NCBI RefSeq assembly: GCF_963675165.1
Contig: NC_087389.1
Location: 6,062,621 to 6,126,620, forward strand
Direction: 5' to 3'
DNA length: 64,000 bases
Source of the DNA: Halichondria panicea
Taxonomy: Eukaryota; Porifera; Demospongiae; Suberitida; Halichondriidae
The translations under genes were made by a program, and so were the position numbers. How positions within the stretch are numbered: the stretch's first letter is position 1; every line of letters begins with the position of its first letter. Under the pieces are notes generated by a model. That model saw only the letters and a list, made by a program, of their open reading frames with translations, was not told the origin of the DNA and searched no databases. Positions 13,960 through 59,795 of the stretch are shown one piece after another.

Positions 13960-16400
13960 TGGACTACCGTAGAAACTGGATTATTAGCGCATGCGCTCAT
14001 GCATGGGGTTAATAGTAGAGCTCTATATTCTTATATTCGAGAATGCGCCTATAATGCAGTCATATTCTAGCCCCACCCATGCAGTAACCAGATGTCTCTG
14101 TGACGAGCGATGTTTCGTGGCAAGCTAACTCGATCTATATCATTATGTTACAGTTTATTTTACACTTCATTTTAAATTCATATCATAATTTTATTATAAA
14201 AATATTCATATTGACCAAGAACTTGGAACAAAAGGACGTCTCATATTCTCTCAGCATGATCAGACAAGGTAGTCCTTCCAGATGGATATCACCAGCTATA
14301 ATTATAGCTACCATGCACTGTACAAGCTAGCTCATAGGAATCAATTCAAAATGTTCACCAAATAATTATTATTATCTTTCGCATGCCATGTAAACGTAGC
14401 GGGTCATTTTCGTGGGGTAAAAATTAGTTCAACTCGAACACGGTGATGTTCGTGAGTCAAAATGTTCATTGCCTGCACTGCATTGCATGCGTTCCAGTAA
14501 ACCACGCCTAGGTCAGCTTGCCCACGAAAATAATTAATTACCCACAAAAATTATCCGCTATGATTATATTTGATGTTAAAGTCTCCCACTCCCACACGCC
14601 TCAGGGTTAATTGTATTGACATTCTGCGCAACCAAGACAGTGTGAAAACACAATACAATAACAGTACTTGTGATCACACATACATGTTGTAATGTAAACA
14701 AAATTACATCAAATCATACGTAACTTGGTGCATGTACAATAGAGTACATTGAGTGTGGAAGGCAACTAGGTAGCTCTAGTTATACAATAGAAAAGCATTT
14801 AATGGAAGGACCGGCATCGATCTGCTACAAACAATGGATATAGCAGCTGTACGTACATAAACCTTTAAAGCTTGCTAAGTGAGTGACCCACCAATGACAG
14901 GGAATGTGGCTGATCATTACAGGAATGTGCTATGAATGAATTAACATGATGATGTCACTAAGTACACAGTACAACGTTACCAACCCAATCACTCAATCAC
15001 AGTGACGGTACATGTATGTGTGCATATATTGATGCAATGTCCGATAAACAGTATCCATAATTAATTATAACACATGTACCACAGTGTGTGGAATATAGTC
15101 AAAGGAACAATGCTCTAGCTTGATCAAACCAGGACCACATGGAAGGGAGTAAGCAACTAATACACACCATATAAATACATGTCAGGTATGTCAAACACAC
15201 TTGTAGTATTGTAATTTGTGTGTGTTGACCAAGGCTAGGCGGGCTACATATATTAAGTCTACGCATGTGCTTGTGCAATTAATCCATGATTTGAGTGGTT
15301 GTATACAAACCTTATTAAGGTAATGAAAGAGGTGAAGCCAACAGTTTAATAAGAGCGGGATTACCAACATTGAAACATTGAGACAGCTCACAACAGCTGT
15401 AGGTACACACTACATGTATACAGTAGAGGACAAATTAAAGTTTATGATGTGTTTGTTAACCCGAGGCACTCCACGGGCTATAGTAGTCAATCTGTGTGTC
15501 TGTGGATATGAGTCTATACTCACCCGGATGTGATAGCACTGTATTGGTACCATGGATAGCCTCAACACAACAAGGTTTTATAATATTAAAGGTTAAAGCT
15601 TTGTTGTCGAGCAAAAGCTAAAAAGCATGAACTGCACTGCAAGTTGGCCTAGATATACACGTGACTTTGACTCGAGGCTGTAAACGTATAGACCTCAAAC
15701 TAACACCGAGGGTTTGCACTTCAGTTTGATTCTGTTGCACAAACAAAATAATTGTTTTTGTGCATGTGCGCTCAAGCTTGCAATATATAGGTACTGAGAG
15801 CAAAAACATTTTAACTTTCCTCGTAAATAATTGGAAAATGCAGAGCGGGATTACAAACATTGTACAATGGATTTTGTACGTACAGTCTACTAATAACTAT
15901 AGTCACGGTAGAGGACAAATTAACGTTTCTGTTCTGTTTGCATATAATTATAGTCTCTGCGTTTGTGTTGATTCTGTTGCACAAGCCAGTGGGAAATGCA
16001 GTAGCTAGGAAGGTACTGAGAGCGAGCGGAAAACATTTGAACGCCCAAGCACAGGAAGCCACACCCACTTTCCTGCGCATGACAGGTGTGGTCACTAAAC
16101 GTACAAAAGCTCAATCTGAATACCTAGTGCTGCTCACTGCTTATGAATAGCTCCACTTTAGCTTATACTATAAGGCCTAGAGGGGTGCTCATCTCATAGC
16201 TGGATAAGCAAAACAATTGTTTTTGTGCATGTGCAATCAAGCTTGCAATATCAAACCACTAATCATATTCATAGTAATTAAGGCTGATAATGTAAACACA
16301 GTAATCACTAAACTATGCACAGGTGGTACAGTCAAATTCCTCAGTCACCAGATATTCCAGTTATATGGTACTATATGCGAACGAAACAGAAACTTTAATT
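13960..16400. other. Intergenic part of X1, no gene seen
   Basis: 13,960-14,640 and about 15,800-16,400 match X2 (53,500-54,300 and 54,890-55,560). 14,640-15,800 is unique to X1. I see no convincing exon. A phrase TTGTTTTTGTGCATGTGC is duplicated at about 15,750 and 16,215. Confidence 0.5.
14393..14560. mobile_element. CCGTATAGC-family MITE (diverged)
   Basis: GTAGCGGGTCATTTTCGTGG at the left and CCACAAAAATTATCCGCTA at the right form inverted termini. Same insertion in X2 at 53,942-54,123. Confidence 0.6.
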
Positions 16401-16479
16401 TGGCAAGTTGCTACAGGTACGAGTGATTGCAACTATGAGCATCAACACTCACTGTACTATAAAGTTCCTTGCTCCCCTC

Positions 16480-18253
16480 ACCTTCCTTTCTCTGTCTTTC
16501 TGGTCTTCCTCGTATCTCAGCAATCTTAGCAGTAGGACACGGACATGTAGAGAAATGAACATGTTCAAATACAGGAATGCATTCACACATGTATACATCA
16601 ATTATTGCAAGTACACGTCTGTACAGCATGAAACTATCAAGAGCAGTACCAATCCTAAATAAAGCCACACAATTTCTGCCTTCATGCAGTAGTACATGTA
16701 CACAAGTCAGTCTAGTTTGCCATTAAATATATAATGCTCAGCTAACGCATACTGACAATAATAAACTCACGTCCTGTTGTTGAGTAACAGTCCACAGAGG
16801 GTACATGTGAGGAGAGAGGGATATGAACACACTGGCTAGTACACACATAGGTACTTAGTACTAGCAATGGCAGATAATGGAAGGGTCAGTGGGTGGGTCA
16901 GTGGAACGGACGGTAAACTGTACAACAAGCATCTTACATGTGCAACTTTGATACGTATGATTTTGTTTGTCGTACAATACAACACATGCACACACACACA
17001 CAATCACAACATACCTCAATGAAACCCTGAGACACATCAAATGGTACATGTGAGGGAGAGATTTAATCTTAACACACATACAAGACATCAGATCAGTTGA
17101 ACGCTGGTGTGTATGGGACTGACTACACATAGCAACAAGTGGAATACATCTAGACCTAAGAAGCTCACCTTCTACAGTAGTCCAAATCAGTGTGAGGTCC
17201 AACATAGGAATGAGTGTGTACATGGGAAGAGACAAACACGATAATGTACCAACTTAGATGAATATTCTATGAACCAACAAAAGTATTAAAAGTACAATCT
17301 AATAAGTTTTGTAGTTGGCAATATGCAAATTGAGAGATAAAGACATTTTACGATTTCCTACAATTAGTGTAGGAGTTCCTATAGTAACCATTAAAATTAG
17401 TGTACACGTGCAAACACAACTTACATACTGTTGATCCAGAGAGGGAGAGTCCACAGGGCAAACACGTGGGAAGATAGTAAATGAATGATTACGAGGTTGA
17501 ATGTGATCATACTAAATATTTCCCTATATAACACTATGGCACTGCACACACACAAGAGTAATAATGGGGAAGTAGAAACATCACAGAATATGCAACGGAC
17601 ACTAAATACTCTGACAACACACACCAACTTACAGCCTGTTGTTTCAGAGGGTCAGTCAAAGGTGAGGTGGAGATGCATGAAATGGAAGGAAGAGAACATT
17701 AGTGCAGTGATACAGTACACTAGTGATTGCATGACACAGGGGAGGGGAAACAATTGTGGGCAGCCAAACATGCAGACTGAAACACTTGATTAACCATGCA
17801 TACTTTCAGGTACTACTATACGAGTAGATCTACTGGTCTCAATTAAGGAATAGTATCACATTCAGTTATCCGTATGTGCTCTTCTTTACACTGTCTACCT
17901 CCTAACAACAAGTGCTCAGAGCACAAGCATGTCAGCTTGGTAGAATGTGATTGCACACAACGTACCTCAATGGCGCTCTGTTGTCCATCCAGAGAGAGTG
18001 GTACATGTGGAGAGAACAACAACATGAGATAAAACACCTCACACTGACAGGGTAGAGTGTAGGCACTATACTGTGATGAATGAATGATGCCAAGTGTGTT
18101 TATGGGTGGTCAACAAGTACATCTAGGCACTAGGAGAATGCACTGATCATTGAGTATCTATCTATCATGTGAATATCATACCCTGTCATAATCGTTAAGT
18201 CCATCCATCAACTGTGGGGAACTAGCAGCATTCAGTGTTGTAGATTCAGCCAT
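16480..18253 (-). pseudogene. Microexon-array gene, X1 copy (3' part deleted)
   Basis: First exon 18,182-18,253 (72 nt, starts MAESTTLNAASSPQL, donor GTATGA). It is followed by phase-0 microexons 17,966-17,977 (SAIE), 17,633-17,635 (A), 17,425-17,427 (Y), 17,169-17,171 (K), 17,015-17,026 (GFIE) and 16,771-16,773 (D). Each lies between a CAG or TAG acceptor and a strong donor. A deletion of about 1 kb relative to X2 removes three more microexons, a 42-nt exon and most of the coiled-coil exon; only codons for IAEIRGRPERQRKE remain near 16,490-16,540. I do not recognise the protein. The copy looks truncated, yet its splice signals are intact and its microexon codons differ from X2 (see findings). 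Confidence 0.5.
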
Positions 18254-18493
18254 TATCAATCTCAAATATTATTAGTTCTTTGTTGTTCAAGGGCTGTTTC
18301 AACAAAGAGGGGCGTAGCTTGTAGGTTAAATGAGGGATTTTCCCACAGCATCCAATTATGTAAGGGAATTTCCCAGCAAGGAATTTGCAAAACATTAAAA
18401 TTAATTGTAGACCACAGTGAATAATTGATCACTTGAGGACAACACAAAATGAATGAGGTATAATTATACAAAAACAAAGTGTGTAAATTATGT

Positions 18494-18591
18494 TCAGTTC
18501 AAGTCCAGGAAGCAGCTGTCACAGACTCTGACCAACTTCTTTGAGGAGGGCAGCTGGGTGCTTTGTGAAGTGCACTGTTGGCAGAATATCA

Positions 18592-35282: not shown

Positions 35283-38200
35283 TTACGTAGCTGCTGTCTG
35301 ACACATTTTAAAGGCCAATTCTTCCTTTCCCATTCTCAACAGTATCTCCACCAGAGCTCTGTAAGTAGCGGCCCCTGGATTATGCTGTCTCCACAGTCTC
35401 AAGGCCTTGTCCATCGCTACTTGTGTGCCATTAGCAAGTTGAGCAATTCTGACATCACTTTGCTCTGCAGGACTCAGTCCCAGTTGTACAGCATAGGTGT
35501 CCACATTGTCAAAGTGAGCTGCCAGAATGATCATGTCAGTCTCTTTAATTTCAGTGTCAAGTTGAGAGTCTGTCACTTTTGCATGCTCCTTCAATTCCTC
35601 AATGGTCACAGTCCTCGGTCCACCAGCTCCTAGGAGAAGGAAATGGGTGTGGTTAATGGGCGGAATCTCTGAGAGTGAACAGAACTGTTTGTCAATGACA
35701 GAGACATGAAATTCCTAGCTCTCTTAAAAGCAGAACACATTAAATTTCTATATAGTTCCTATAAGAACATAATTAATTACCCCAAATTCAATTATTTTAT
35801 GCATGCATGGTTAACTGTAATCACGTACTGATCCACACATACCTGAGTGACTGGTGTGTGGATGTGAAGTGAGTCCTTCAGTGACATCAGATGGTACAGC
35901 ATCTGTCATTGCTGCATGTATTAATAATAACTGCTATAATTAATGCAGTGTAATATAATGTGTTCTGCTTTTAAGAGAGCTAGGAATTTCATGAATACGT
36001 AGATGTATATGGATTACCGACAAAGATGACTCACCTGTTGTATGTTGGTCTGTTCTGTGTGTAGACTGCAGGGCTGTAGTACAAGTAGCCTTGTCACTAG
36101 CTGTGGGGTGGTGCTCTACTGGTGATGCTTGAGAGAAGCTCTGTTCATTGATGAGAGTGTCTGGATCAGTGACATCACTAGGAGTGTCCACTGTATCAAC
36201 AACCTCATAAACAATTCTGTTGTATTCCGCTGGTTCGTTAGCGGTTGACCATGAAAGGATACTGTCGAAAACAGCTGAAGATATCTATAATGGATAAGAT
36301 TGCAGTAAAAAGTTAAAAATAATGATGTATTAATTGCTACACTCACCGTTTGAGCCTCATCAATCATCTTCGACAGTAGCGTATCCCAAAGAGAATGGAA
36401 AGTACGATTCATCTAGGAAATTATAAGATAATTTTTATGCATGAATCAAGAACTCACCTCTTCATTTAGTGGAGGTAAACATGTTCTCTCCCACTCAGTC
36501 AGCACTGCAGAATTCCTTGATTCTCGTATGGTCTGTGTATTAAGATAAATGCAACATAATCATGAACTATTGAGTGAGTACCTTCAACTGTTCATTGCAC
36601 ATGAGTATCAACTCCTCGTTCACAGGATTACCATAGAGTCTAACACCGTCCTCCAGGTAACTGAACCCCTCCAGACTAGGGAACAGCTCTGGTAGACACT
36701 CAGTGAGAGCTATCACTCCCTCATCATCAATGGAATTGTGGTTGAGATCCAACCTTTTTAAATTCTTACATATCACATTAGCGAACTTGAGATGGTGGAT
36801 AAGCATTATGATGTCGGCAGAGGTGAGAGAATAACGCCACCAGTAAAGTTGTTCCAGATATGGAAATGCTTGAAGAAACTTTGCCAGTAAGAGAGTTCCA
36901 GCAGTTCCACTGAAATTGGAACCAGACAAGTCCATCACAGTTAAACTGTTAGGGTTGATATTCAGCATCTCACAGGTGACTGTGTATTGAGATTCAGAGT
37001 GAAATGAAGTGGTGAGATGGGTAGCTGATAATTCAATCTTAGTCAATCGTAACGGAATGTTCTCCACAACTGAACATAATCCAGGTAAACCAAGATTATT
37101 ATCAGAGAGGAGTAATTTTACCAGATCAGGACAGTGAGGGGCAATCGACTGTAAGAGGGTGGTCAGTAGAGCTCCATTGACGTCAGCATCATCAGTGAGG
37201 GTTTTGGCTAGCTTCAGTACCTTCAGGTTGATAAGAGCATCAGACAGTACAGCTGTCTCTAATGACTGTATGCCAGACACTCCAAGAGGATTGTGGGATA
37301 AGTTCAGTGTTGTAAGGCTCATACAAGATGTGTGTATGAATGACGACGTGACGTTAGTGAAGTTGTTATAAGACAACGAGAGGTAATCTAAAGTTGTAAA
37401 AGCAGCTGAGGCTCTCCTGAATAGATCAGCAACACCTTTGTCAGACAACTTAGTCTGCTGGAGGGATAATCGTGTGACTTGCAGTTTACCATTCGCATTG
37501 GAAAGTATGTCAGTTAGTTCCTTCAACAGTTTATCATCGATTGCACAATGGGATATTATGATAACCATATCATCACAATTTACAGCATGACGAAGAACAT
37601 AGAACCCAGCTACACAGTCAAAAGTGGTGCTGAAATTATCGTCTAATAAATTTGCTCCATACAAATTACAAACTTTTGTGCAGAATCCAGAGTCAGAAGC
37701 TTCGAAAGCAGCATGACATAATAAAACCAACTTTTTAAGCTTTCCAGCAAACACAAATTGATCCGTCAAACCATGATCCAAACTGATCACCTTATCGCTA
37801 TGACTACCATTGTACTTACTAGCAATACCAAACATAAATCTCCACACCATGTCAAACCGGCCACTGTCAGCATTAGTCTCAACAATCTTCAGTTTCTCTT
37901 CATTCGGTAGAGTAGCAAGATGGAGGGCAGCCAAGAACTCCTGGATGGTCAGGTGAGCAAAGTGAAAAGACAGGCCATGACCAACAGGTAGAAGTGATCG
38001 TGCAGACTGCAACAGACCAAAGCACAGCAACTTGTCACCAACTTCGGGTAAGCGAAAGGACAAATCATCTTCTGAGAAAACCAGCTGATCTAATAATAAG
38101 CACTCGTAGGCAAACTCACACATCAACCAAAATGTGTTTTGTAGATCATTCGGAATCTTGTCAAAGCTATTGCAGCTAATAGGACAATCAGGGAACTTCT

Positions 38201-39091
38201 TTTTGACATTACGAAGGATAATGTTAAGAATAATTTGAGTGTACAGCTCAGTTAGCGTACGAGGAAGCTCTTGGTCTAAAGTGTGCCACAAGTTACAAAC
38301 AATGGCACAATTGAGGGGCACAGAACACACACTCTGAATGACTGGGTTGTTCTCAAGCTGCTTGATGAGAGAACTGGAAATTGCTCAAACTCTGATTCTA
38401 TGTATTGCTTGATATTCTCCTCATTGAAACCAACTACCTCAACCAAACGGTTTACAGAGGGAAGGTCATGAAGAGGAGCTGAAGCAGAAGGTCGTGAGGT
38501 GAGGAGAACAGAAGCAAAAGGAAGAACATCACCAAAGAGAAGGTCATATAGAAATGAGGTTTCTAATTGATTGTCTTCACTAAGCTCGTCCCAGCCATCA
38601 GCTATGATGAGGACACTTTTTCCTTCTTTTTCTTCCAACTCTTCTACAACAGATTGGCGAATCCTCTCATTGGCATGAAGAAGTTTGAACAGCTCAGCGA
38701 GACTTGTGGCAGAGGACACTCGATTCTCTCTCAGTGGAAGCAACAGAACACAGTTGAATTGTGTCAGGATCTTGCCCTCTGCCCACCCTTCAGCAAGCAT
38801 GGTACACAGTGTGGTTTTACCAATCCCAGCATTGCCTTCAACGATGAGCTTCTTGACTGGTTTCTTGCTTTCTTCGACTTTGAATAGGTTGCCATGGAGA
38901 ATTGGAGTACGCTTGACCTTATCATCAGGTGCACCATGTTGTGGCAAGCCGGCTCTAAATCCTTCTTCTTTTTCAGCCTCCACTAACTGCAAGTTGATGA
39001 GCCTGTCTCCTCTAACTGGTGGCCATTGCTTTTGACGATTCAAGAGTCTTTCTATGTATTTCTGGCGAATGCTAGTAATGAATTTATCCAT
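35283..39091 (-). CDS. NACHT-LRR protein with C-terminal DEATH domain
   Basis: The main exon (about 36,582-39,091) encodes MDKFITSIRQKYIERLLNRQ, a NACHT domain with Walker A GNAGIGKTT (86-94), Walker B LIIADGWDEL (161-170) and LLTSRP (196-201), a helical part, then leucine-rich repeats (LDYLSLSYNNF, LTTLNLSHNPLG, LKRLDLNHNSIDDEG). Smaller exons 36,458-36,532, 36,347-36,412, 36,035-36,284 and 35,843-35,911 form a linker. 35,283-35,629 is a DEATH domain (DSQLDTEI...YRALVEILLRMGKE, stop). All junction phases agree. NLRs are cytosolic innate-immune sensors. Here the death-fold domain is C-terminal, not N-terminal. A 1-nt frameshift near 38,365-38,375 interrupts the frame after the NACHT core; it is a real lesion or an assembly error. 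Any 5' exon is unknown. Confidence 0.75.
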
Positions 39092-39720
39092 GTTCTGATC
39101 AATTTAGGAATTGTTTACAGCAAATACGAAATATTTGTATAGATTGGTTATTACTAATTTCAAGAGCGTAGTCGGAAGTGACCTGAGATGATGTAATAAA
39201 AGCAGCAACAACCTAGCAGAGGATAGAGAATTGAGATTTGATTACCGTACTTTATCTGACACAGTGTAGGATATGCCCCACCTACAAGGAGGATATACGG
39301 GGTGCATAATTATCCTCCTCGTATATGTGTAGTATATATCTGCATGACTTAATTATACATCTATATAGCTGCATGTTCCAATAAGAGGTGACGTATCAGT
39401 GTGGTAGGATTCGAATATTTCAGCGAACACTCTGGTGCTTTAACATATTCAGACATGAAAAGTTATAAAATACATTCCAAGCAACATAGCCAACAAGAGT
39501 GCTGTAGTTGTTAGTGTACTATTCAGTCACACACTGTTCTATTAAACTTAGCTATCTTGCTTGCATATAGCTGCTTTCCCAGCCTCGTTGTCTCTAAAAC
39601 AATGCTAGCTATAGGACGCCAACTATGTAGGCCTGGTATTGATTGATTCTGGACGTGCATGGTTATAGGAACCAAAAAACAAAAGCAGAGAGATTTTGCA
39701 AAAACAACACACCGGCAGTG
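39092..39720. other. Upstream region of the NACHT-LRR gene
   Basis: No exon recognised. A weak acceptor (GATCAG) lies 3 nt before the first ATG, so a short 5' exon may exist here. Contains the imperfect inverted pair AAGGAGGATATACG / CCTCCTCGTATATG near 39,285-39,330. Confidence 0.35.
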
Positions 39721-46902: not shown

Positions 46903-49900
46903 TTACTTAGCTGCTGCTGACTGACAAACTTCAAATGCCAATGCTTCCTTTCCCTTTCTCAACAGCATCTCCACCAGAGCTCTGTAAGTAGCGGCCCCTG
47001 GATTATGCTGTCTCCACAGTCTCAAGGCCTTGTCCATCGCTATTTGTGTGCCATTAGCAAGCTGAGCAATTCTGACATCACTTTGCTCTGCAGGACTCAG
47101 TCCCAGTTGTACAGCGTAGGTGTCCACAGTGTCAAAGTGATCTGCCAGGTCCAACATGTCTCTCTTTTCAATTTCAGTGTCAAGTTGAGAGTCGGTCACT
47201 TTTGTATGCTCCTTCAATTCCTCAATGGTCACAGTCCTCGGTCCACCAGCTCCTGGGAGAAGGAAAGGGGTGTGGTTAATGGGGTGGAACCTTTGAGAGT
47301 AAACGGACATTATTAACAGGGCTTCATAGAGGGGGGAGCACGCTCGCCCCCCTGGCAATTGTGATTTTTGTATTGAAAATAATAGGACATAACACACAGT
47401 GTTACGGCCTGTGACACACCAACCAAACAAAGAGCTCTGCCTTAATATTCATAACAAGAATAGAGTTCTTTACGATAATTAAGCTGCTATTCTTCTACTC
47501 TGTGTGTTCCATACGTTCACAATTTCTTCTTCTAAGTCACTATCTGTAATTTGTAAGTACATGCAGAGGGAGATTCAAGTTGAAAAAGGCTTGTGTCGCT
47601 CAGGCTATGGCTTTGTCTAGCACTATAATTATGCAAATGAAATTTCTGCATTTTTCCACAATCAGGGTGTCATACAGGATTTTGAAGTAGAGGGGGGAAA
47701 TGAGAAAAGTAATCAGAAAGTGTTGCTAGAAAAAGGTCAACTGTTATTTCAATACCCAGCTATGGACACTCAGTCATAATTGAAAGGGGGAGCTAGGGGA
47801 GGGATATCCCCCCTTTCCCCCCTGTATGACACCCTGACAATAATAGCGATATACGACAGTCTAACACAAACATTTCCTGGGGGGGGGGGGGGGGGCACGG
47901 GTAATCACCTCGCCCTCCATTTTTCTGAAATGTTAATTTTGCCTGCCCCTGTCACGTATGAAGGCCTGACATACTCTCTCTAAAAGCAAACCCATATAGC
48001 AGAACACTACAAATTCACTGAACAAAAGCTCAGCACAGTATATTTATGTAATCCACACATACCTGAGGGAATGGTGTGTGGATATGAAGTGAGGACATCT
48101 TGTGAGGTCTTTCCTTCAGTGACATCAGCAGCTGTGTCTAATATTGAGATACAGTATTTTACAACAACTACTGGCGTGTATATACCGATAATCTGTTACC
48201 AACGGCACTTCCTTACTGGTATATAGCTGTTGATCACTCATCACCGTCTTCTTAATACACACATGTTCCATTGCAGGAGACAATTTGTCTGAGGAAGGAA
48301 TATTTATAATACAAAAGTGATTACAAAACAAAGCTTACCAGAAGTAATGTGCTGATCATGATCATGTACTTATGAGTAAAAAATATTAATAAGTGTATGT
48401 ATGGCCATACAAAGTCATTTGTAGTTTCTCAGGCCTTCGCGCTTGGAAATTTGCAGCTTTACAAAAAAGAAATATCACGTGACCTCAAATTAAAGGCACT
48501 AAAAGAAAAGAAAATGATGGTTTTTGGTCATGAATAATTATAATTATGACTAAAATTAATTAGTAGAAATTATGCACTTCCGCTTATTAAGGAAGTTAGG
48601 GGTGTGTTTCAATTAAAAATCTATGAATATCATTATCATTAAATATTTATCAAATGTCTCAATCCGCTTGTTATTTTAGGAATTATAGCCTGAGAAACAC
48701 CAAATTGACTTTGCATGGCCTATACTGAATTTTGAAGTGTTAATTGATAGAAGAAAAGTCCAATGCATGTGTCTCACCGTCCAGCACCTAGTTACTACTG
48801 ATACGTGGTGAAGTGAACAAAATACACAAACACTGAAAATATAGTTACCTGTGATGCTATCAGCCAAATTGATGAGATCCACAGTGGGCCTTTTGAGACC
48901 ATCTGATAGGAGACTCCATGTTACATGTTGTGTACTCAGGAGCTTGGCCAACATTTCACGCAAGCACGATACATTATTTCCACGATGCTCGCTATCAATG
49001 TTGGTGAGAACAAAATGACTGAGACCTAAAGCCAATCCCAGATTGAACCAGTGAGGGCTGGCACTTTTAAGTTTCTCGTAAACATGTTGTAGATCGGTCA
49101 TTGTCAAAGCCTGTACAAAAACAACAATTAACAGGGTTTCATTTGGTGAGGGTTGCCCCCTCGGAAATACCTTCTAGAAGAAACTCAATGGGAATACAAT
49201 TGAGGGGTTCTGGTGAACAATATTCTTAACAGGGCAGATATAGTAATGAATTCCTGGGGTCACGAACCCTCTAGATATATACATGTCATCAACACCCTAA
49301 TATCATGCACGTGCACCATTTGCTCCCCTTGCCAAAATGTCAGGAGGATAAGTAGATACAAGATTTAGAGTACTGCCTACCTTGTGCACGTTCAGCAGGT
49401 GAGGAAATTTCTCCGCGATAAGAATGATGTCACTCTCAGGGATTTCTTGATTGAGTTGTTGGTCTCTCACTCCAGTCTTCTTACACACATCTTCCATTAC
49501 TGTAACAGAGGACAATTCACCTGAACATAACAAAGAAAAACATGTAAAAATATTAGGTCAAAAAGTAATTATTCGCGACATATATAATACTATATATTAT
49601 AAGCGACATAACAGCAACCAATGGAGATTTTTTAGGACACTGTTAAGTCTGAGTTGGCGCTTACAATTACAGTGCAGCATACATGCAGCTTATAGAGAGT
49701 AGATTACCACAACTGTGTGAGTGGCTGTACTTAAATTAATGTTGATAATTATCTTTTGATTGAAACCTTTCTAAGAAATGGTGCTGATACCATTGTGTAG
49801 GTGAATGACCAAGCTACAAAAATGTTTCTATGGAAACATGAGGTGGTGGGTTTGGGGGATTAATAAGCAAATTGTTATAGTGGGTAATCGGTTAAAAGAC

Positions 49901-52900
49901 TAACCTTAAACAGCTAAGGTCTCAGACTTCATAAGTTAAATGGTTTAGGTATCCTTTATGGGTCTACAAATGTCCACAGTGTATATAATTCATGATTTAC
50001 TAGTTTTTAGGTATACTTTTGGTTAGAGTAATAACTTCTGAAAAATGAATAGCTTACAGCTTTCAAATTTCTGTAGTAAGTTCACAGATAAAGGGGCTAC
50101 ATACCGGAGTATTGCTGCTGATGACTCTTTCTCTCAGTCTTCATAAGAGTATCTCCCGTAGCAGACGATGGTTTTCCTAATTGAAGGGAAACATAATTAT
50201 AATAATTGTTACAGTAATGAAAGCACCGCGGGTGCTGATACCTCGGTGGAGGTGCCAACGCTACAAAACATAAAGCTGCTAATAGCATTAATGAATTTGC
50301 TGCATGCAGGCAGAATCCAGAGCAGAGTCCAAAATCACAGGGAAACTCAAAGAGTGCATGGGTAATCATCGACCACGATTGTTCAAGTATAAGATTAATG
50401 GCAGCATCAGCAGAGCCTTGCAGCTCTCTGCTCACTCTTGCAGCTACCAATAGCTAGCGTTCTAGTGCAGAGCTAACTACTAAGTAGAGTAGCAACACTC
50501 CATGGACAAGATTGGCTACATGCTCTTCTGAAAAGGCTGCAATCGTATTCCAAGTAGGCATAACTCGAGAACGAAGCAGTATTTTGCAAATCCATGAATT
50601 TAAATTCAAGAGAGCATGACTAGAAGCCTATAGAAACTGTTACTTGCACTGGATCGATCCTTGAGCAGCTGTAGCAGTCTACACACACACACGTACACAC
50701 ACACAAACACACTACCGTACGTATATACCTCGCTTGCGCATAATGACCAAGTAAATAACTTATCCACTATATATGGAACCCCAACAGACATTCCTTACTG
50801 GTATATTGATCACTCATTCTACACACAGGTTCCATTACAGGGGACGATGGACCTGAGGGGGATAATACAAAGGTCAATTACAAAAATATGATACGCAAAT
50901 AATTTGTTACTATTGTAGTACATATAATTTTCCTATAATAAAAGCTGCAAATATTTACGTATAGTGCTACATAACTACCGGAGTATTGCAGCTGATGTCT
51001 CTTTCTGTCAGTGTTCACATCTGAGGAGGCTTCACCTATAACCAAGGAAAACAAAATATTGCTGAACACTGCACTTACCAGAACTTTCGATAAACTTTAA
51101 TTATAGTTGCAATTTACATGAAGGCAAGAACAGTATGACTATTCAGTATCGTAATCTAATAAGTGTTAGTAAAGCAATGTATGTCATGTACTTACCAGAT
51201 TGTTGCTGCTGATCACTCAATGTCATCTTTGTACACATGTCTCCCGTAACAGAGGCTGATGCACCTAATTGAGGGGGAAAACAAAAAGGTAACTTTCAAT
51301 TTTAAAAAAACGACTGTACTCACCAGAACCTTCGCTATTGTCCAGCCAGATTCTATGTTCATCACTGAGATCTCCCCACACACGTGTCTGAAGGGAGCAC
51401 TTCCAAAACTTACAGCCACTCCGTTCGATCACATCAGCAAGGTGCAATTTGCCAGTGCTCTTCTTGCATGGGCAAAAGATGGCTGTCTTGGGTGTGTCGT
51501 TGTTGTAATGCAACACTGCACACGACAATTTAATGCTGTGCAAAATTTCGTTTCGAATCATAGGGCATACTTCATTGCGAAGAGAAACAGGGACGTCGAT
51601 ATACACTTCCATATATGAGAAGGAGTCGATCAGAGTCACGGTACACGGGAGATCGGAGATTTCATACTGGATACAATTTTTAGCAAAAATGCTTGTTTCG
51701 CCTGAAGGGAGCAAAACTTTCCAGCCCACCCTCTTGATCACGTCCACAACTAGACAGCAAAAGACTCCAGAGCGAATACACCCACTACGAAAGTAGATAG
51801 CGAGGGGCGCTATTGTGAAGGAGGAACGGATTTTATCTAGCTCAGCAGGTGGGATGGATTTGAGTAGAGATGGCATGAAGAACTCGGCTTGGTGGAGAGT
51901 GGACTCCACTAGTGGAATGGGAGCAATCACGAGAAGCTCTTTCATGATCAACAGCATATCTTCTGGAGAAAAGATGCCTTTAACGTAATGCTTCTCAAAG
52001 AATCGTAGGAACTTTAAATTGATTATGCCTTCGTCTCGAAATCTCTTCCATTCGGCCTCGATCCCTCTTGTACTTAGAGTAGAGCGTGATTTGACTTCAG
52101 CATTCCTCAGGGAGATGGCGTGCTGTGAGAGCTCGGTGATCTTGTCTAGTGGAATCTGGGCATCCACAAACACTGTGTTGGGGAGAATGGAGGGATAGTA
52201 GTGCGCTATACACACGTTGTCAAAGAAGACCAGAGCAGCTTCAAGATCTTGGAGCACGTAATGAAATCGAGTGGCTAATCGGAGACATTCTTGCTTGCTC
52301 AGTACACCTCGCTCGAGAGTGGCAGATAAACTCTGGAGAAGTGAATCCAAGAAGGACCACCAGATAGGCATTTTGACTTGTAGCGGAATAGAACGCTCAA
52401 TAGCTATTCTAATCCTATTGGCAGTGGCCAGTGAATCTTCATCTCGGCTGATCGTGTTGAGATCAAAAATCAGATTGTTCAATGCAAGATTGTTGTACAC
52501 CAATAGCTTCTTGCTATCGGGTGGCAGCATGTCGAGAACCTCTTGATTCCTCTTGATAAGAGTATCCAAGCTCTTGAGCTGATCTAAGAACGTGCCAACA
52601 AAGATCATCTTCGGCTTCTTGTCTTGTGAGGTATGGGACTCAATGGATCGAATGAGACTCTGAAGTGTCTCCCTGAGGGTCATGTGAGATGCATGAGGAC
52701 TACCAACAAGCTTCCCATCCTTGTAGTACTCGTCAGTAGGGAAACTGGAGAGTTCGTCAATCAAACGCAGGACTATCAACGCCACTGAAATGTGCTTGAT
52801 GAAGAGAGGGCTGATGTCGTGGAATTGGGGTTGTCCGCCGCAGTCGGTAACGTACACCCAGTTGGAATCAAACAGTTCTCCTTCTTGCTGGTCACTGCTC

Positions 52901-53435
52901 GACAGTTGGTCAGTTCCCTGTGTGGCTGGCTTCAGCTCTTCTGCCACACCACTCACTACACTCGCTATCACTTTATTGATAGCTCTGTCCAACCTTCTTG
53001 CAGAGCCAGAAAGTGCGACGGAATCGTTGCTCGATGGAGTCGATTTGAAACCAGAAATTGGCTCATCAGAAACAGAAATTAGCTCGGTTGTGGTCATCTT
53101 CTTCAAGCTCTCGGCAACCCTTAATGCCGAGGATGGATCGGTGCTTTCTTTTGGTAGTTTGGCGATGATTTGAGCTAGTAGCTTACGCAGCTTTGGCTGA
53201 GACATCTCTTCCCAGCCTCTTCCAGTTGACCTGAATTTTTCATTAGACACGGGTCGAATGCGTACTGGCTTTTCCATACAAGGAGTGCTGTCTCGCTGTA
53301 GTGGAGGGGGCTTGTCAGTTAGCAGGTGCTTGAGGTTGGTCTTCCCTGTTCCCGCCGGTCCAAACACGAGCATGTTGACAATGTTGACCAAGACGTGTCC
53401 GTGCTTCATCCCCTCATCAAACAACCGCTTTGATT
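46903..53435 (-). CDS. Roc-COR-type GTPase with C-terminal DEATH domains (block X2)
   Basis: Paralogue of 8,850-13,899 with the same 2,112-nt main exon (51,324-53,435) and few changes. It keeps P-loop GPAGTGKTN, switch-II DCGGQ and VGTFLDQ. Linker exons: 51,196-51,264, 50,979-51,035, 50,799-50,852, 50,105-50,176, 49,381-49,520, 48,217-48,288 and 48,063-48,137. DEATH-domain exons: 48,849-49,110 (LGLSHFVLTNI) and 46,903-47,252 (YRALVEMLLRKGKE, stop). The last linker plus DEATH pair matches the tail of the NACHT-LRR gene, not that of X1, so the two GTPase genes have different 3' ends. The 69-, 57-, 54- and 72-nt linkers (51,264 down to 50,105) are phase 1-1 cassettes. The 72-nt exon ending at 48,288 has donor CCA|GTAAGG. 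Cytosolic signalling role inferred. Confidence 0.7.
47310..47365. mobile_element. Degenerate half of the CAGGG...CATACAG MITE
   Basis: CAGGGCTTCATAGAGGGGGG without a clear right end. Confidence 0.4.
47664..47836. mobile_element. 173-bp MITE
   Basis: Perfect 16-bp termini CAGGGTGTCATACAGG and CCTGTATGACACCCTG, flanked by ACAAT on both sides (47,659-47,663 and 47,837-47,841). It lies in an intron of the X2 GTPase gene. Confidence 0.85.
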
Positions 53436-55591: not shown

Positions 55592-58500
55592 CTTCCTTTC
55601 TCTGCCTCTCCTCTGGCCTTCCTCGTATCTCAGCAATCCTATTCTCACTGTAATGTATGAACCTCTCACACTCTTGTATCTCTAAGACACACTTCTTGAT
55701 CTTCCCCTCCACCTCCTCCAGCTCTCCCTGCAGTTGTCTCCGGTCTTGGTCAGTGATGTCATCAGACAGTCTCTGTTGGAGGGCAGCTCTTCTCTGGGGG
55801 GAGTAAAGAATATATATACGACTGAATGAACATTCCACCAAATAGAACATGCAGCTGATACAAATCACTACTGCACGTTATAAGGTTAACAAATTGCGTA
55901 CAATCCACATAACAAAATATAAAGGTCAGCAACCACTAACCTATTCAATCAGTAAAAGTGGACTTATAAAACATACACAAAGGTAGACAAAAAGCAACCA
56001 TTCATCATACAATGGACAGTACATGTACACACATTGTCGTTCTGCTAGACTACGTGTACCACTCTTACCACGAGAGTAGTAAGTGCAACTGTCAACACTC
56101 ACCGTCTCGTAACTCTTCAGTTCACTCTCCTCCTTAGCCTTCCACTGGACAAGGTGAACAAGACAAGAGTGATTAGACTGTGTGTTTGTGGTCACACATT
56201 ATGAGTTGTCTATAGGTGTAGCTACGAGGGTCAGGTAAGGATATGAGACTATACAAACTGAATGCACATGAAGTGTACGGTATGTTGCCAACATTGTTTG
56301 ACTCACGTTCTATTGTTCCAGATATTCAGTAACCATGGAAATGTATGGAGAGAAAAGAATATAATCACAAACCTGTACACTATGATGTCAATAATTTATA
56401 TTACACGGCATGTTCTCATACGTACAACTCAAACATTACTGACACAAGTACAGTCACAAGTCAGTGCAGTGTCCCGCTCACCTTCTGTTTAGTCCAATGA
56501 GACACCAGCATAAGACACACATGGAAACAGAGAGAGGGGGATGATGGTAGGAGCAGTGAGTGCATTCATACATGTCTGTATACTGTAACTTACCCTCTGT
56601 TGTTCCAGTAATCATTAGCAGTAGTCACATTAACAAGTAGTAGGACACGGATATGTAGAGAAATGAACATGTTCAAATACACGAATGCATTCACACATGT
56701 ATACATCAATTATTGCAAGTACACGTCTGTACAGCATGAAACTATCAAGAGCAGTACCAATCCTAAATAAAGCCACACAATATCTGCCTTCATGCAGTAG
56801 TACATGTACACAAGTCAGTCTAGTTTGCCATTAAATATACAATGCTCAGCTAGCGCACACTGACAATAATAAACTCACGCCCTGTTGTTGAGTAACAGTC
56901 CACAGAGGGTACATGTGAGGAGAGAGGGATATGAACACACTGGTAGTAACTCAGTACACACTGGCTAGTACACACACAGGTACTTAGTACTAGCAATGGC
57001 AGATAATGGAAGGGTCAGTGGGTGGGTCAGTGGAAGGGACGGTAAATGGTACAACAAGCATCTTACATGTACAACTTTGATACGTATGATTTTGTTTGTC
57101 GTACAATACAAGACACGCACTCCATGAGACACACACACAATCACAACATACCTCAATGCGACCCTGAGACACATCAAATGGTACATGTGAGGGAGAGATT
57201 TAATCTTAACACACATACAAGACATCAGATCAGTTGAACGCTGGTGTGTATGGGACTGACTACACATAGCAACAAGTGGAATACATCTAGACCTGGCACA
57301 TTAAAGCTCTTGGGAACAATCTTGAGAAACCAAGAACTTAATTAGTTGGGGAATTTACATGTACACAATGTACACGATGCATGTACATGTGTGGTGTTTC
57401 TAAATTGTGCGTAAAAATAATGGGACTACAAATAGTACAAGGTTACTGTTCGGAAATTTACGTACATGCAGATTTAGGAAAGTTAGTCAGTACAAACATT
57501 TTGGGCAAGTTTGGAGCATGTGTAATGTGCCCTGGCCTACACCTGGGGTAACCACAAACTGGGAAGCTGATATCGTCCTCGTAGCCGTGGTCTACCCTAT
57601 ACGAGGGAGAGGGTCAGCTCTAGAGGACAAGGGACACACTAGTCACGCTAGGTAACCAGTACATCCGTACACATTGCAGCTGAACCATTTTAGTGTGTGG
57701 ACATTGAGTACCCATAAGAAGCTCACCTCCTACAGTAGTCCAAATCAGTGTGAGGTCCAACATAGGAATGAGTGTGTGCATGGGAAGAGACAAACACGAT
57801 AATGTACCAACTTAGATGCATATTCTATAAACCAACAAAAGTATTAAAAGCACAACCTAATAAGTTTTGTGGGCCTCGGCTAATGTAACCATTAAAATAA
57901 GTGTACACGTGAAAACACAACTTACATACTGTTGATCCAGAGAGGGAGAGTCAACAGGGCAAACACGTGGGAAGATAGTAAATGAATGATTACGAGGTTG
58001 AATGTGATCATGCTAAATATTTCCCTATATAACACTATGGCACTGTACACACACAAGAGTAATAATGGGGAAGTAGAAACATCACAGAATATGCAACAGA
58101 CACTAAATACTCTGACAACACACACCAACTTACACCCTGTTGTTTCAGAGGGTCAGTCAAAGGTGAGGTGGAGATGCATGAAATGGAAGGAAGAGAACAT
58201 TAGTGCAGTGATACAGTACACTGGTGATGCATGACACAGGGGAGGGGAAACAATTGTGGACAGCCAAACATGCAGACTGAAACACTTGATTAACCATGCA
58301 TACTTTCAGGTACTACTATACGAGTAGATCTACTGGTCTCAATTAAGGAATAGTATCACATTCAGTTATCCGTATGTGCTCTTCTTTACACTGTCTACCT
58401 CCTAACAACAAGTGCTCAGAGCACAAGCATTTCAGCTTGGTAGAATGTGATTGCACACAACGTACCTCAATGAATTCCTGTTGTCCATCCAGAGAGAGTG

Positions 58501-58746
58501 GTACATGTGGAGAGAACAACAACATGAGATAAAACACCTCACACTGACAGGGTAGAGTGTAGGCACTATACTGTGATGAATGAATGATGCCAAGTGTGTT
58601 TATGGGTGGTCAACAAGTACATCTAGGCACTTGCACTGATCATTGAGTATCTATCTATCATGTGAATATCATACCCTTTCCTCACGAGTGAGTCCCTCCA
58701 TCAACTGTGGGGAACTAGCAGCATTCAGTGTTGTAGATTCAGCCAT
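55592..58746 (-). CDS. Microexon-array gene, X2 copy (5' part)
   Basis: Exon 1 58,675-58,746 (MAESTTLNAASSPQL...MEGLTREER). Nine phase-0 microexons follow: 58,466-58,477 (EFIE), 58,134-58,136 (G), 57,926-57,928 (Y), 57,727-57,729 (E), 57,152-57,163 (GRIE), 56,879-56,881 (G), 56,594-56,596 (R), 56,482-56,484 (K) and 56,307-56,309 (N). Next are 56,103-56,144 (WKAKEESELKSYET) and 55,592-55,793, a coiled coil (LQQRLSDDITDQDRRQLQGE, RFIHYSENRIAEIRGRPEER). Donors are near-consensus (GTAAGT, GTGAGT, GTGAGC, GTATGT, GTACGT). Acceptors are CAG or TAG, often after (C)AACAG-like ends with CTCTCC...CACATGTACC upstream. Every internal exon except the last is a multiple of three and in phase 0, so any could be skipped. 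I do not recognise the protein; 3' exons beyond 55,592 were not found. The microexon reading is inferred from splice signals only. Confidence 0.55.
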
Positions 58747-59089: not shown

Positions 59090-59690
59090 TGAGTGGGTGT
59101 GGTCTATCTAACTTGGACTTCATTGCGCATGCGCGAGGCGTGGTTATAAAAAGCCAGGTTTGGTGCGTAGCAACAGAAATTGAATTTGTGCGAGCTGGAT
59201 GAGCTGGAGAGCTGTGAGAGACACCAGTTGACAGAAAAAGACAAGAAGACGGCTTCATAACAATGAAAAACTACATTAAAACTTAGTAAAGCTTGTGAAA
59301 CGCTTCTTGAAGATACTGGAAAGAACAGACAAGTAAAAAGAACTTAGAACTATGCTAGAACTGACTGCAACACTACAAGAAGAAGAATGAAGCTCTGTGG
59401 TGGAGTGGAAGGGGGTATAGAGCAGACTGGACCGGCATGGAACCTTAAAAAACTCAATAGAAAGTGTCAAGCGACTGCTAAAGTGTTTTTGATGCTTCCT
59501 GGCCCCCCTTGCCCATGCCCAACTGGAAAAAGCAATACAAAGCAACAGCTAGTGGACATGGAAAGAATGGATATTGACTGAACAAACTATTGCATTCTGT
59601 GTTTTTTGTAATGTTTTTGTCATCTTCTTGTCACTTTCACTAAAAATTTCATTCCAACTTTTGAGAACTTCTTGCAAATTATTTGTCACT
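59090..59690 (+). other. Possible promoter and 5' exon, not recognised
   Basis: A TATA-box-like TTATAAAAAG at about 59,143-59,152 precedes a stretch with short open pieces (LCELDELESCERHQLTEKDK; later LNRKCQATAKVFLMLPGPP) separated by stops. It may be a decayed gene of the adjoining mobile element. Weak. Confidence 0.3.
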
Positions 59691-59795
59691 TCCTGTAGAA
59701 TATGCGTCCATTTCCTGTAGAATATGTGTCCACTTCCTGTAGAATATGTGTCCACTTCCTGTAGAATATGCGCCCATTTCCTGTAGAATAAGTAC
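59690..59795. repeat. 22-bp tandem repeat, five units
   Basis: CCTGTAGAATATGYGTCCAYTT repeated five times. The core TAGAATATGCG is the same as the termini of the fold-back at 58,988-59,089. Confidence 0.9.

Follow-up and report, generated by a model that had tools for sequence, protein, structure and literature searches.

Can a gene carry a run of exons that are each a single codon long, and what would such a run encode? This question is raised by a 64,000-nt stretch of the 131-Mb genome of the sponge Halichondria panicea (NC_087389.1, here C13; G000:C13:6062621-6126620), referred to below as the window. In a gene on its minus strand, the original prediction, made from the letters alone, placed nine consecutive microexons between two larger exons. 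The gene is annotated in RefSeq as LOC135347046 (P0003; 100% identity over the part covered). The nine sites (m1 to m9, in the direction of transcription) and both flanking exons, exon 1 and exon 10, were confirmed where they had been placed. Seven of the sites comprise 3 nt and two comprise 12 nt, and all nine have an AG upstream, a GT downstream, a length divisible by three and phase 0; as very short exons bounded by AG and GT, they fall within the definition of a microexon. We estimate a probability of about 0.8 that the nine microexons are normally all included and encode a coiled-coil surface that is hypervariable between approximately 45 gene copies, which together would form a germline receptor set.

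The microexon donors are near consensus, as predicted, but that of exon 1 is not (GTATGA). A common CTCTCC..CACATGTACC stretch was found upstream of m1, m5 and m6, and at the microexon acceptors the pyrimidine stretch is set back from the AG, with a GGA.CAACAG-like sequence in between. The introns separating the array exons are about 100 to 560 bp long and near-invariant. A run of such sites in one orientation was expected to lie far beyond chance, and three observations agree with this. The window contains 15 occurrences of the pattern YAGNNNGTRAGY (4.96 expected), a count reached in 0 of 100 shuffles; seven of these sites are the main array and four a truncated second copy at 16.7 to 17.6 kb. 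Genome-wide, CAACAGNNNGTAAGT gives 142 matches versus 18 for its reversed control, and 85 among the 100 matches listed fall by position in arrays on C13 or on a second chromosome, C10. Finally, sites are conserved in dozens of copies, and even the divergent copy L052 retains m2 to m9 with 48/48 donor bases. A chance origin was rejected on these grounds.

Paralogs of the region are numerous on C13 and C10 (at least 117 matches; 40 of 64 candidates scored). The sequence context of m2 identified 46 family places and one doubtful place on C12 (L055), in which no similarity to the family beyond the m2 context was found; the m3 context identified 45. In total, 48 loci were read, 47 of them besides the window. 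Every aligned copy of m2 to m9 (38 to 46 copies per site) retains AG and GT, m1 has its AG in 41/42 copies and its GT in all 42, and 34 of the 47 copies with any site keep all nine in frame with both. These sequence comparisons support the view that the array sites behave as true phase-0 microexons in one orientation.

Between their constant splice sites, most of the array codons are hypervariable. In the eight codons of m1 to m3 and m5 to m7, the first two positions are near saturation, with a nucleotide diversity (pi) of 0.57 to 0.76; the same positions in m9 have a pi of 0.42 to 0.48. The 60-nt flanks of the microexons have a mean pi of 0.007 to 0.158 (0.051 for all flanks together). All 34 complete copies carry distinct codon strings, any pair differing at 5 to 9 of the nine variable codons. 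L023 and L026 differ at 10/1052 flank bases, yet at 9/9 codons and 17/27 codon bases; for L023 and L025 the figures are 8/1054, 7/9 and 8/27. The share of differing codons is nearly independent of flank distance (r = 0.12, 802 pairs), and no stop occurs in 1166 codons. In m2, 45/46 copies have T as their third base. In exon 1, codons 1 to 16 are conserved (proportions of nonsynonymous and synonymous differences, pN and pS, of 0.018 and 0.064) and codons 17 to 24 are variable. Sequencing error or an assembly artefact is unlikely, because only codon positions vary next to constant neighbours in 38 to 46 copies per site.

The variable and constant codons alternate in a heptad register that runs through a first helix (helix 1) from m1 to exon 10. 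Positions b, c, f and g have an entropy of 2.42 bits versus 0.38 for a, d and e (permutation p = 5e-5), a difference of 2.04 for the chosen register and 1.07 for the next best. A second stretch, in exon 11, shows the same pattern within one ordinary exon (2.13 versus 0.34; 39 of 41 aligned copies, L022 being dropped and L017 lacking a motif match). Exons 10 and 11 are joined in RefSeq proteins P0007 and P0009, and an AlphaFold2 model of P0009 folds into a hairpin of two helices (2-36 and 41-104), with a pLDDT of about 90 over residues 11 to 70. By hand count from the turn, the variable part of helix 2 would lie opposite the microexon-coded part of helix 1, a pairing that we infer, since m6 and exon 10 are all that the model holds of the array.

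Synonymous change bears on the source of this variation. Among pairs with the same amino acid, 57/1081 differ in codon (5.3%, twelve codons) versus 5.1% in introns; for the nine microexon codons alone the count is 41/722. Because synonymous change thus roughly equals that of introns, diversifying selection is favoured over a mutator, which would be expected to leave numerous synonymous changes at these codons, and the excess variation is mainly amino acid change. The nine codons are mutually independent (variance 0.909 versus 0.898 +- 0.051, p = 0.43). Codons are associated with each other when they share an exon (mean z of 1.33 over 40 pairs) but not when they lie in different exons (0.12, 191 pairs; p = 9e-9), and the contrast holds on C13 alone (p = 6e-4) and on C10 alone (p = 2e-7). 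Codons separated by introns are therefore in linkage equilibrium and those sharing an exon weakly linked, although structural covariation of neighbouring residues could also produce the within-exon association. In C10 introns, linkage disequilibrium decays from an r2 of 0.66 for sites within 20 nt of each other to roughly 0.05 past 500 nt; C13 is noisier (only 20 single nucleotide polymorphisms). Extensive exchange between the two chromosomes is not supported: at 104 diagnostic positions, C10 and C13 introns can for the most part still be told apart, with a few mosaic tracts (e.g., L014 and L019 between m8 and m9).

Several points weigh against the reading of the array as a wholly included, hypervariable coding unit. 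Some sites are missing from the alignment in 13 of the 47 copies. Truncated or rearranged copies lack, for example, m5 to m9 (L037, L045 to L047), m2 to m4 (L030), m4 to m6 (L039) or m7 to m9 (L049); in the divergent L052 to L054, a direct scan recovers further sites that the alignment missed. The heptad register was picked post hoc with the data already seen, and the hairpin model, besides including so little of the array, has translated intron as its residues 1 to 11. Synonymous-pair rates exceed those of introns at m1.1 (6/35), m1.2 (12/45), m5.2 (9/34) and m6 (8/65), and the array pS of 0.203 (pN 0.403) exceeds intron pi, an estimate partly inflated by the counting of multi-step paths. Copies sharing a codon have clearly closer flanks only at m2, m3, m5.1 and m9. 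The absence of stops counts for less than it might seem, because NNT codons cannot be stops. Exons 10 and 11, although ordinary in kind, contain hypervariable codons too, so variability does not require microexons. In the annotation, none of 119 RefSeq proteins examined begins with exon 1, the RefSeq model of the window gene begins at MKHGHV and omits exon 1 and the microexons, and a protein search with exons 1 to 11 returned five proteins, none with the array, whose starts lie in the intron preceding m6, at m6 itself or beyond it.

The sites might then not be exons at all, but a decayed or non-transcribed 5' region, recursive splice points or chance matches, in which case the first exon of the real gene would be exon 10, exon 11 or the GTPase exon, where RefSeq models do begin. 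We regard this as very improbable: amino acid patterning, frame and splice sites are conserved across the copies, codons 1 to 16 of exon 1 are constrained, and the RefSeq model of L049 (P0009) uses the m6 donor, its exon ending exactly after the m6 codon and being followed by a 169-nt intron to exon 10 (no m7 to m9 site was found in L049). At a true recursive splice (ratchet) point, AG directly abuts GT and no bases are retained, whereas here 3 or 12 codon-variable bases lie between them. The original prediction had seen in the array a generator of isoforms, in which different combinations of the small in-frame exons would enter the transcript and yield single-residue variants; the micro-exon genes (MEGs) of schistosomes are comparable. 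The uniform phase 0 and lengths in multiples of three fit this idea, as do several RefSeq isoforms of family members, though the models examined lack the array. However, if any one of the exons were skipped, the heptad register would be lost, which argues against routine skipping, as the copies hold that register; m4 and m8, at position a, are nearly constant, and the diversity lies in the DNA, between gene copies. The isoform claim is thus not supported, and such a generator is unlikely.

A targeted mutator, that is, a dedicated enzyme hypermutating the codons in the manner of diversity-generating retroelements or AID, would account for near-saturated 3-nt islands amid nearly invariant flanks, for nine of nine codons changed at 1% flank divergence and for the synonymous excess at the sites listed above. 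Nevertheless, synonymous differences are close to those of introns overall, the third base of m2 hardly varies, and m8 and position d are invariant within the same array, so that we give this explanation little credence.

We therefore return to a germline set of hypervariable coiled-coil surfaces, for which the following scheme is proposed. The microexons would encode the N-terminal hairpin helix of a Roc-COR GTPase/Death-like protein, advancing position by position along the heptad, with exon sizes tracking it: a b-c-d-e exon and then one-codon f, g and a exons form a set that occurs twice, and m9 and exon 10 come after it (Table 1). Positions a, d and e would maintain helix packing, leaving b, c, f and g as the exposed surface. 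Diversifying selection on amino acids would work upon ordinary point mutations, while exchange between copies would keep introns alike and reassort codons, the outcome being a receptor set with different binding surfaces. Because 3 nt are too short for exon definition, splicing would have to be intron-defined and stepwise (ratchet-like), joining the one-codon exons in turn. A bolder version, which we hold only tentatively, is one-codon exon shuffling: the introns would serve as recombination spacers, and gene conversion or unequal crossing-over would swap single codons among the approximately 45 copies on two chromosomes. If true, codon-by-codon swapping would build up, in the germline, a combinatorial collection of surfaces for recognition.

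Table 1. Features of the array gene and of its truncated second copy (positions in the window)
Feature	Position	Strand	Content	Copies
Exon 1	58675..58746	minus	MAESTTLNAASSPQLMEGLTREER; ends in phase 0	39 aligned; GT donor 39/39
m1	58466..58477	minus	12 nt, XXI[E/K]; heptad b c d e	42; 36 distinct sequences
m2	58134..58136	minus	one codon; heptad f, hypervariable	46; 14 codons
m3	57926..57928	minus	one codon; heptad g, hypervariable	45; 12 codons
m4	57727..57729	minus	one codon; heptad a	GAG 40/44, AAG 4/44
m5	57152..57163	minus	12 nt, XXI[E/K]; heptad b c d e	41; 39 distinct sequences
m6	56879..56881	minus	one codon; heptad f, hypervariable	40; 15 codons
m7	56594..56596	minus	one codon; heptad g, hypervariable	39; 11 codons
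m8	56482..56484	minus	one codon; heptad a, constant	AAG 40/40
m9	56307..56309	minus	one codon; heptad b; GAA/AAA/AGA/AAC	38; 4 codons
Exon 10	56103..56144	minus	WKAKEESELKSYET; continues helix 1	39; AG and GT 39/39
Exon 11	55592..55793	minus	turn and hairpin helix 2; second half hypervariable, same heptad pattern	
Roc-COR GTPase exon	51324..53435	minus	resembles LRRK2 and bacterial Roc-COR in fold	
Death-like helical domain exon	48849..49110	minus	assigned by eye; no Pfam match above cut-off	
Second Death-like domain exon	46907..47252	minus	near C terminus; no Pfam match	
Truncated second array copy (L022)	16182..18553	minus	exon 1 and m1 to m6; m7 to m9 and exon 10 not found	

Downstream of the array, the Roc-COR tandem places the protein among the Roco GTPases. 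One domain scan gave no NACHT match in its GTPase exon, and no kinase was seen in P0003. A parallel exon at 35283-35714 matches PF00531 Death with an E value of 2.5e-4, slightly short of the curated cut-off; this Death-like exon comes after an NLR-type NACHT-LRR gene that adjoins the array gene (36567-39103, minus strand; NACHT E = 9.6e-26, LRR_6 E = 1.4e-12). Upstream of exon 1, a 22-bp tandem repeat of five units lies at 59687-59790. Further GTPase exons, 46 to 47% identical to that of the window, were observed downstream of same-family arrays on C13 (5584164, 5760744, 5829317, 6023272 and 4967808). Taken together, the Roc-COR and Death-like domains, the high copy number and the exposed hypervariable surface suggest an intracellular sensor serving immunity or self-recognition. 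Individual-specific receptor expression and GTPase-related lipopolysaccharide responses have been described in H. panicea (PMC8242945), in a text of which the portion examined does not name the array family.

Some copies carry further sites of the same kind. C10 loci such as L027 (1067) and L028 (1066) have an extra CAG-GCT-GTGAGT site between m1 and m2, always with GCT (14 loci), and a TAG-TTG-GTACGT site, always with TTG, lies ahead of m4 in 23 loci (both counted by eye). These could be additional constant microexons, whose inclusion would shift the heptad, or decoys. At m3, the codon TGG was seen in L018, L023, L025, L045 and L050, on both chromosomes, and pairs with the donor GTTAGT rather than GTAAGT (5/5 TGG copies versus 0/40 others), which could reflect descent or compensation. 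The exact m3 pattern, sought in independent individuals, had no match in genome_contigs or viral_contigs.

As to how the array arose, a more distant GTPase gene (L056, C6:5256900-5261900) has an exon-11-like hairpin exon, reading RRAKLLRELQSSPSDERRHHLETELAHINSEIQELKSK at a minus-strand offset of about 1057 and lacking variable heptads. Its gene strand has no YAGNNNGTRAGY site in the 5 kb read upstream. The array is probably derived, since L056 has the hairpin exon without such a site, and its hairpin may represent the state preceding the origin of the array. Simple duplication of a four-exon heptad block is not supported by the introns. Of the heptad-equivalent pairs, m1-m5 scores 8/18 with z = 2.8 and m3-m7 scores 10/18, and m2-m6 and m4-m8 fall under the listing threshold; the best pairs are m5-m6 (z = 7.0), m3-m6 (6.0) and m1-m6 (5.4). 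Among acceptors, the pairs m2-m3 and m2-m9 score 13/18 and 12/18, above a 99% null of 9.

Known systems share single aspects of this design. Spliced 3-nt microexons in NCAM, Drosophila troponin T and human RPS24 (consecutive exons of 3, 18 and 22 bp) show that one-codon exons exist and are spliced; as described in the parts of these sources consulted, each gene has a single, constant, alternatively spliced 3-nt exon, with no array or hypervariability (PMC8042270, PMC11162997). Plant microexons of 1 to 15 nt are likewise often missed in annotation and occur in adjacent pairs, but are sequence-conserved and described as crucial to gene function, and the parts of PMC8831610 consulted describe no hypervariable array. 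Schistosome MEGs resemble the array in their serial small symmetric exons, mostly of 15 bp (minimum 6 bp in the text and 3-81 bp in the abstract of PMC10526429), and MEG-1, MEG-9 and MEG-15 have a ratio of nonsynonymous to synonymous substitution rates above 1 in some mature regions (PMC4350168). In what these papers report, however, MEG variation is attributed to alternative splicing of secreted proteins, whereas that of the array lies between copies, in single codons of a heptad; nor does the array gene consist mostly of small symmetric exons, the GTPase exon alone spanning 2.1 kb.

A parallel in variability is provided by the hnwd genes of Podospora, which act in non-self recognition and in which, according to the sections of PMC2873952 consulted, a few codons per repeat are under diversifying selection at an interaction surface, with concerted evolution and codon reshuffling. 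The array similarly has few hypervariable positions on a conserved framework, their placement at the surface following from the heptad register, but hnwd concerns WD40 repeats in fungal STAND proteins. Unlike in the array, the variable codons of hnwd sit inside repeats and not in separate exons. Among Roco proteins, LRRK1/2 share the Roc-COR fold; in the array protein it is accompanied by C-terminal Death-like domains, and DAPK1 combines Roc-COR with Death. We know of no N-terminal hypervariable hairpin in this family.

Within the open-licence PMC literature, no comparable one-codon hypervariable array was found in Halichondria, in Porifera or elsewhere. If spliced as predicted, the chain would be the densest run of one-codon exons known to us and would join microexons with hypervariable recognition surfaces, a pairing absent from the literature found. 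Since RefSeq omits exon 1 and the microexons of the window gene, similar arrays may sit undetected elsewhere. The array also offers a direct test case for introns as spacers that allow single amino acids to be sorted by selection and gene conversion. Sponges have no rearranging antigen receptors; if the chain is spliced as predicted, this sponge would have a large set of receptors in its germline, in which framework and variable positions make up a code that can be read.
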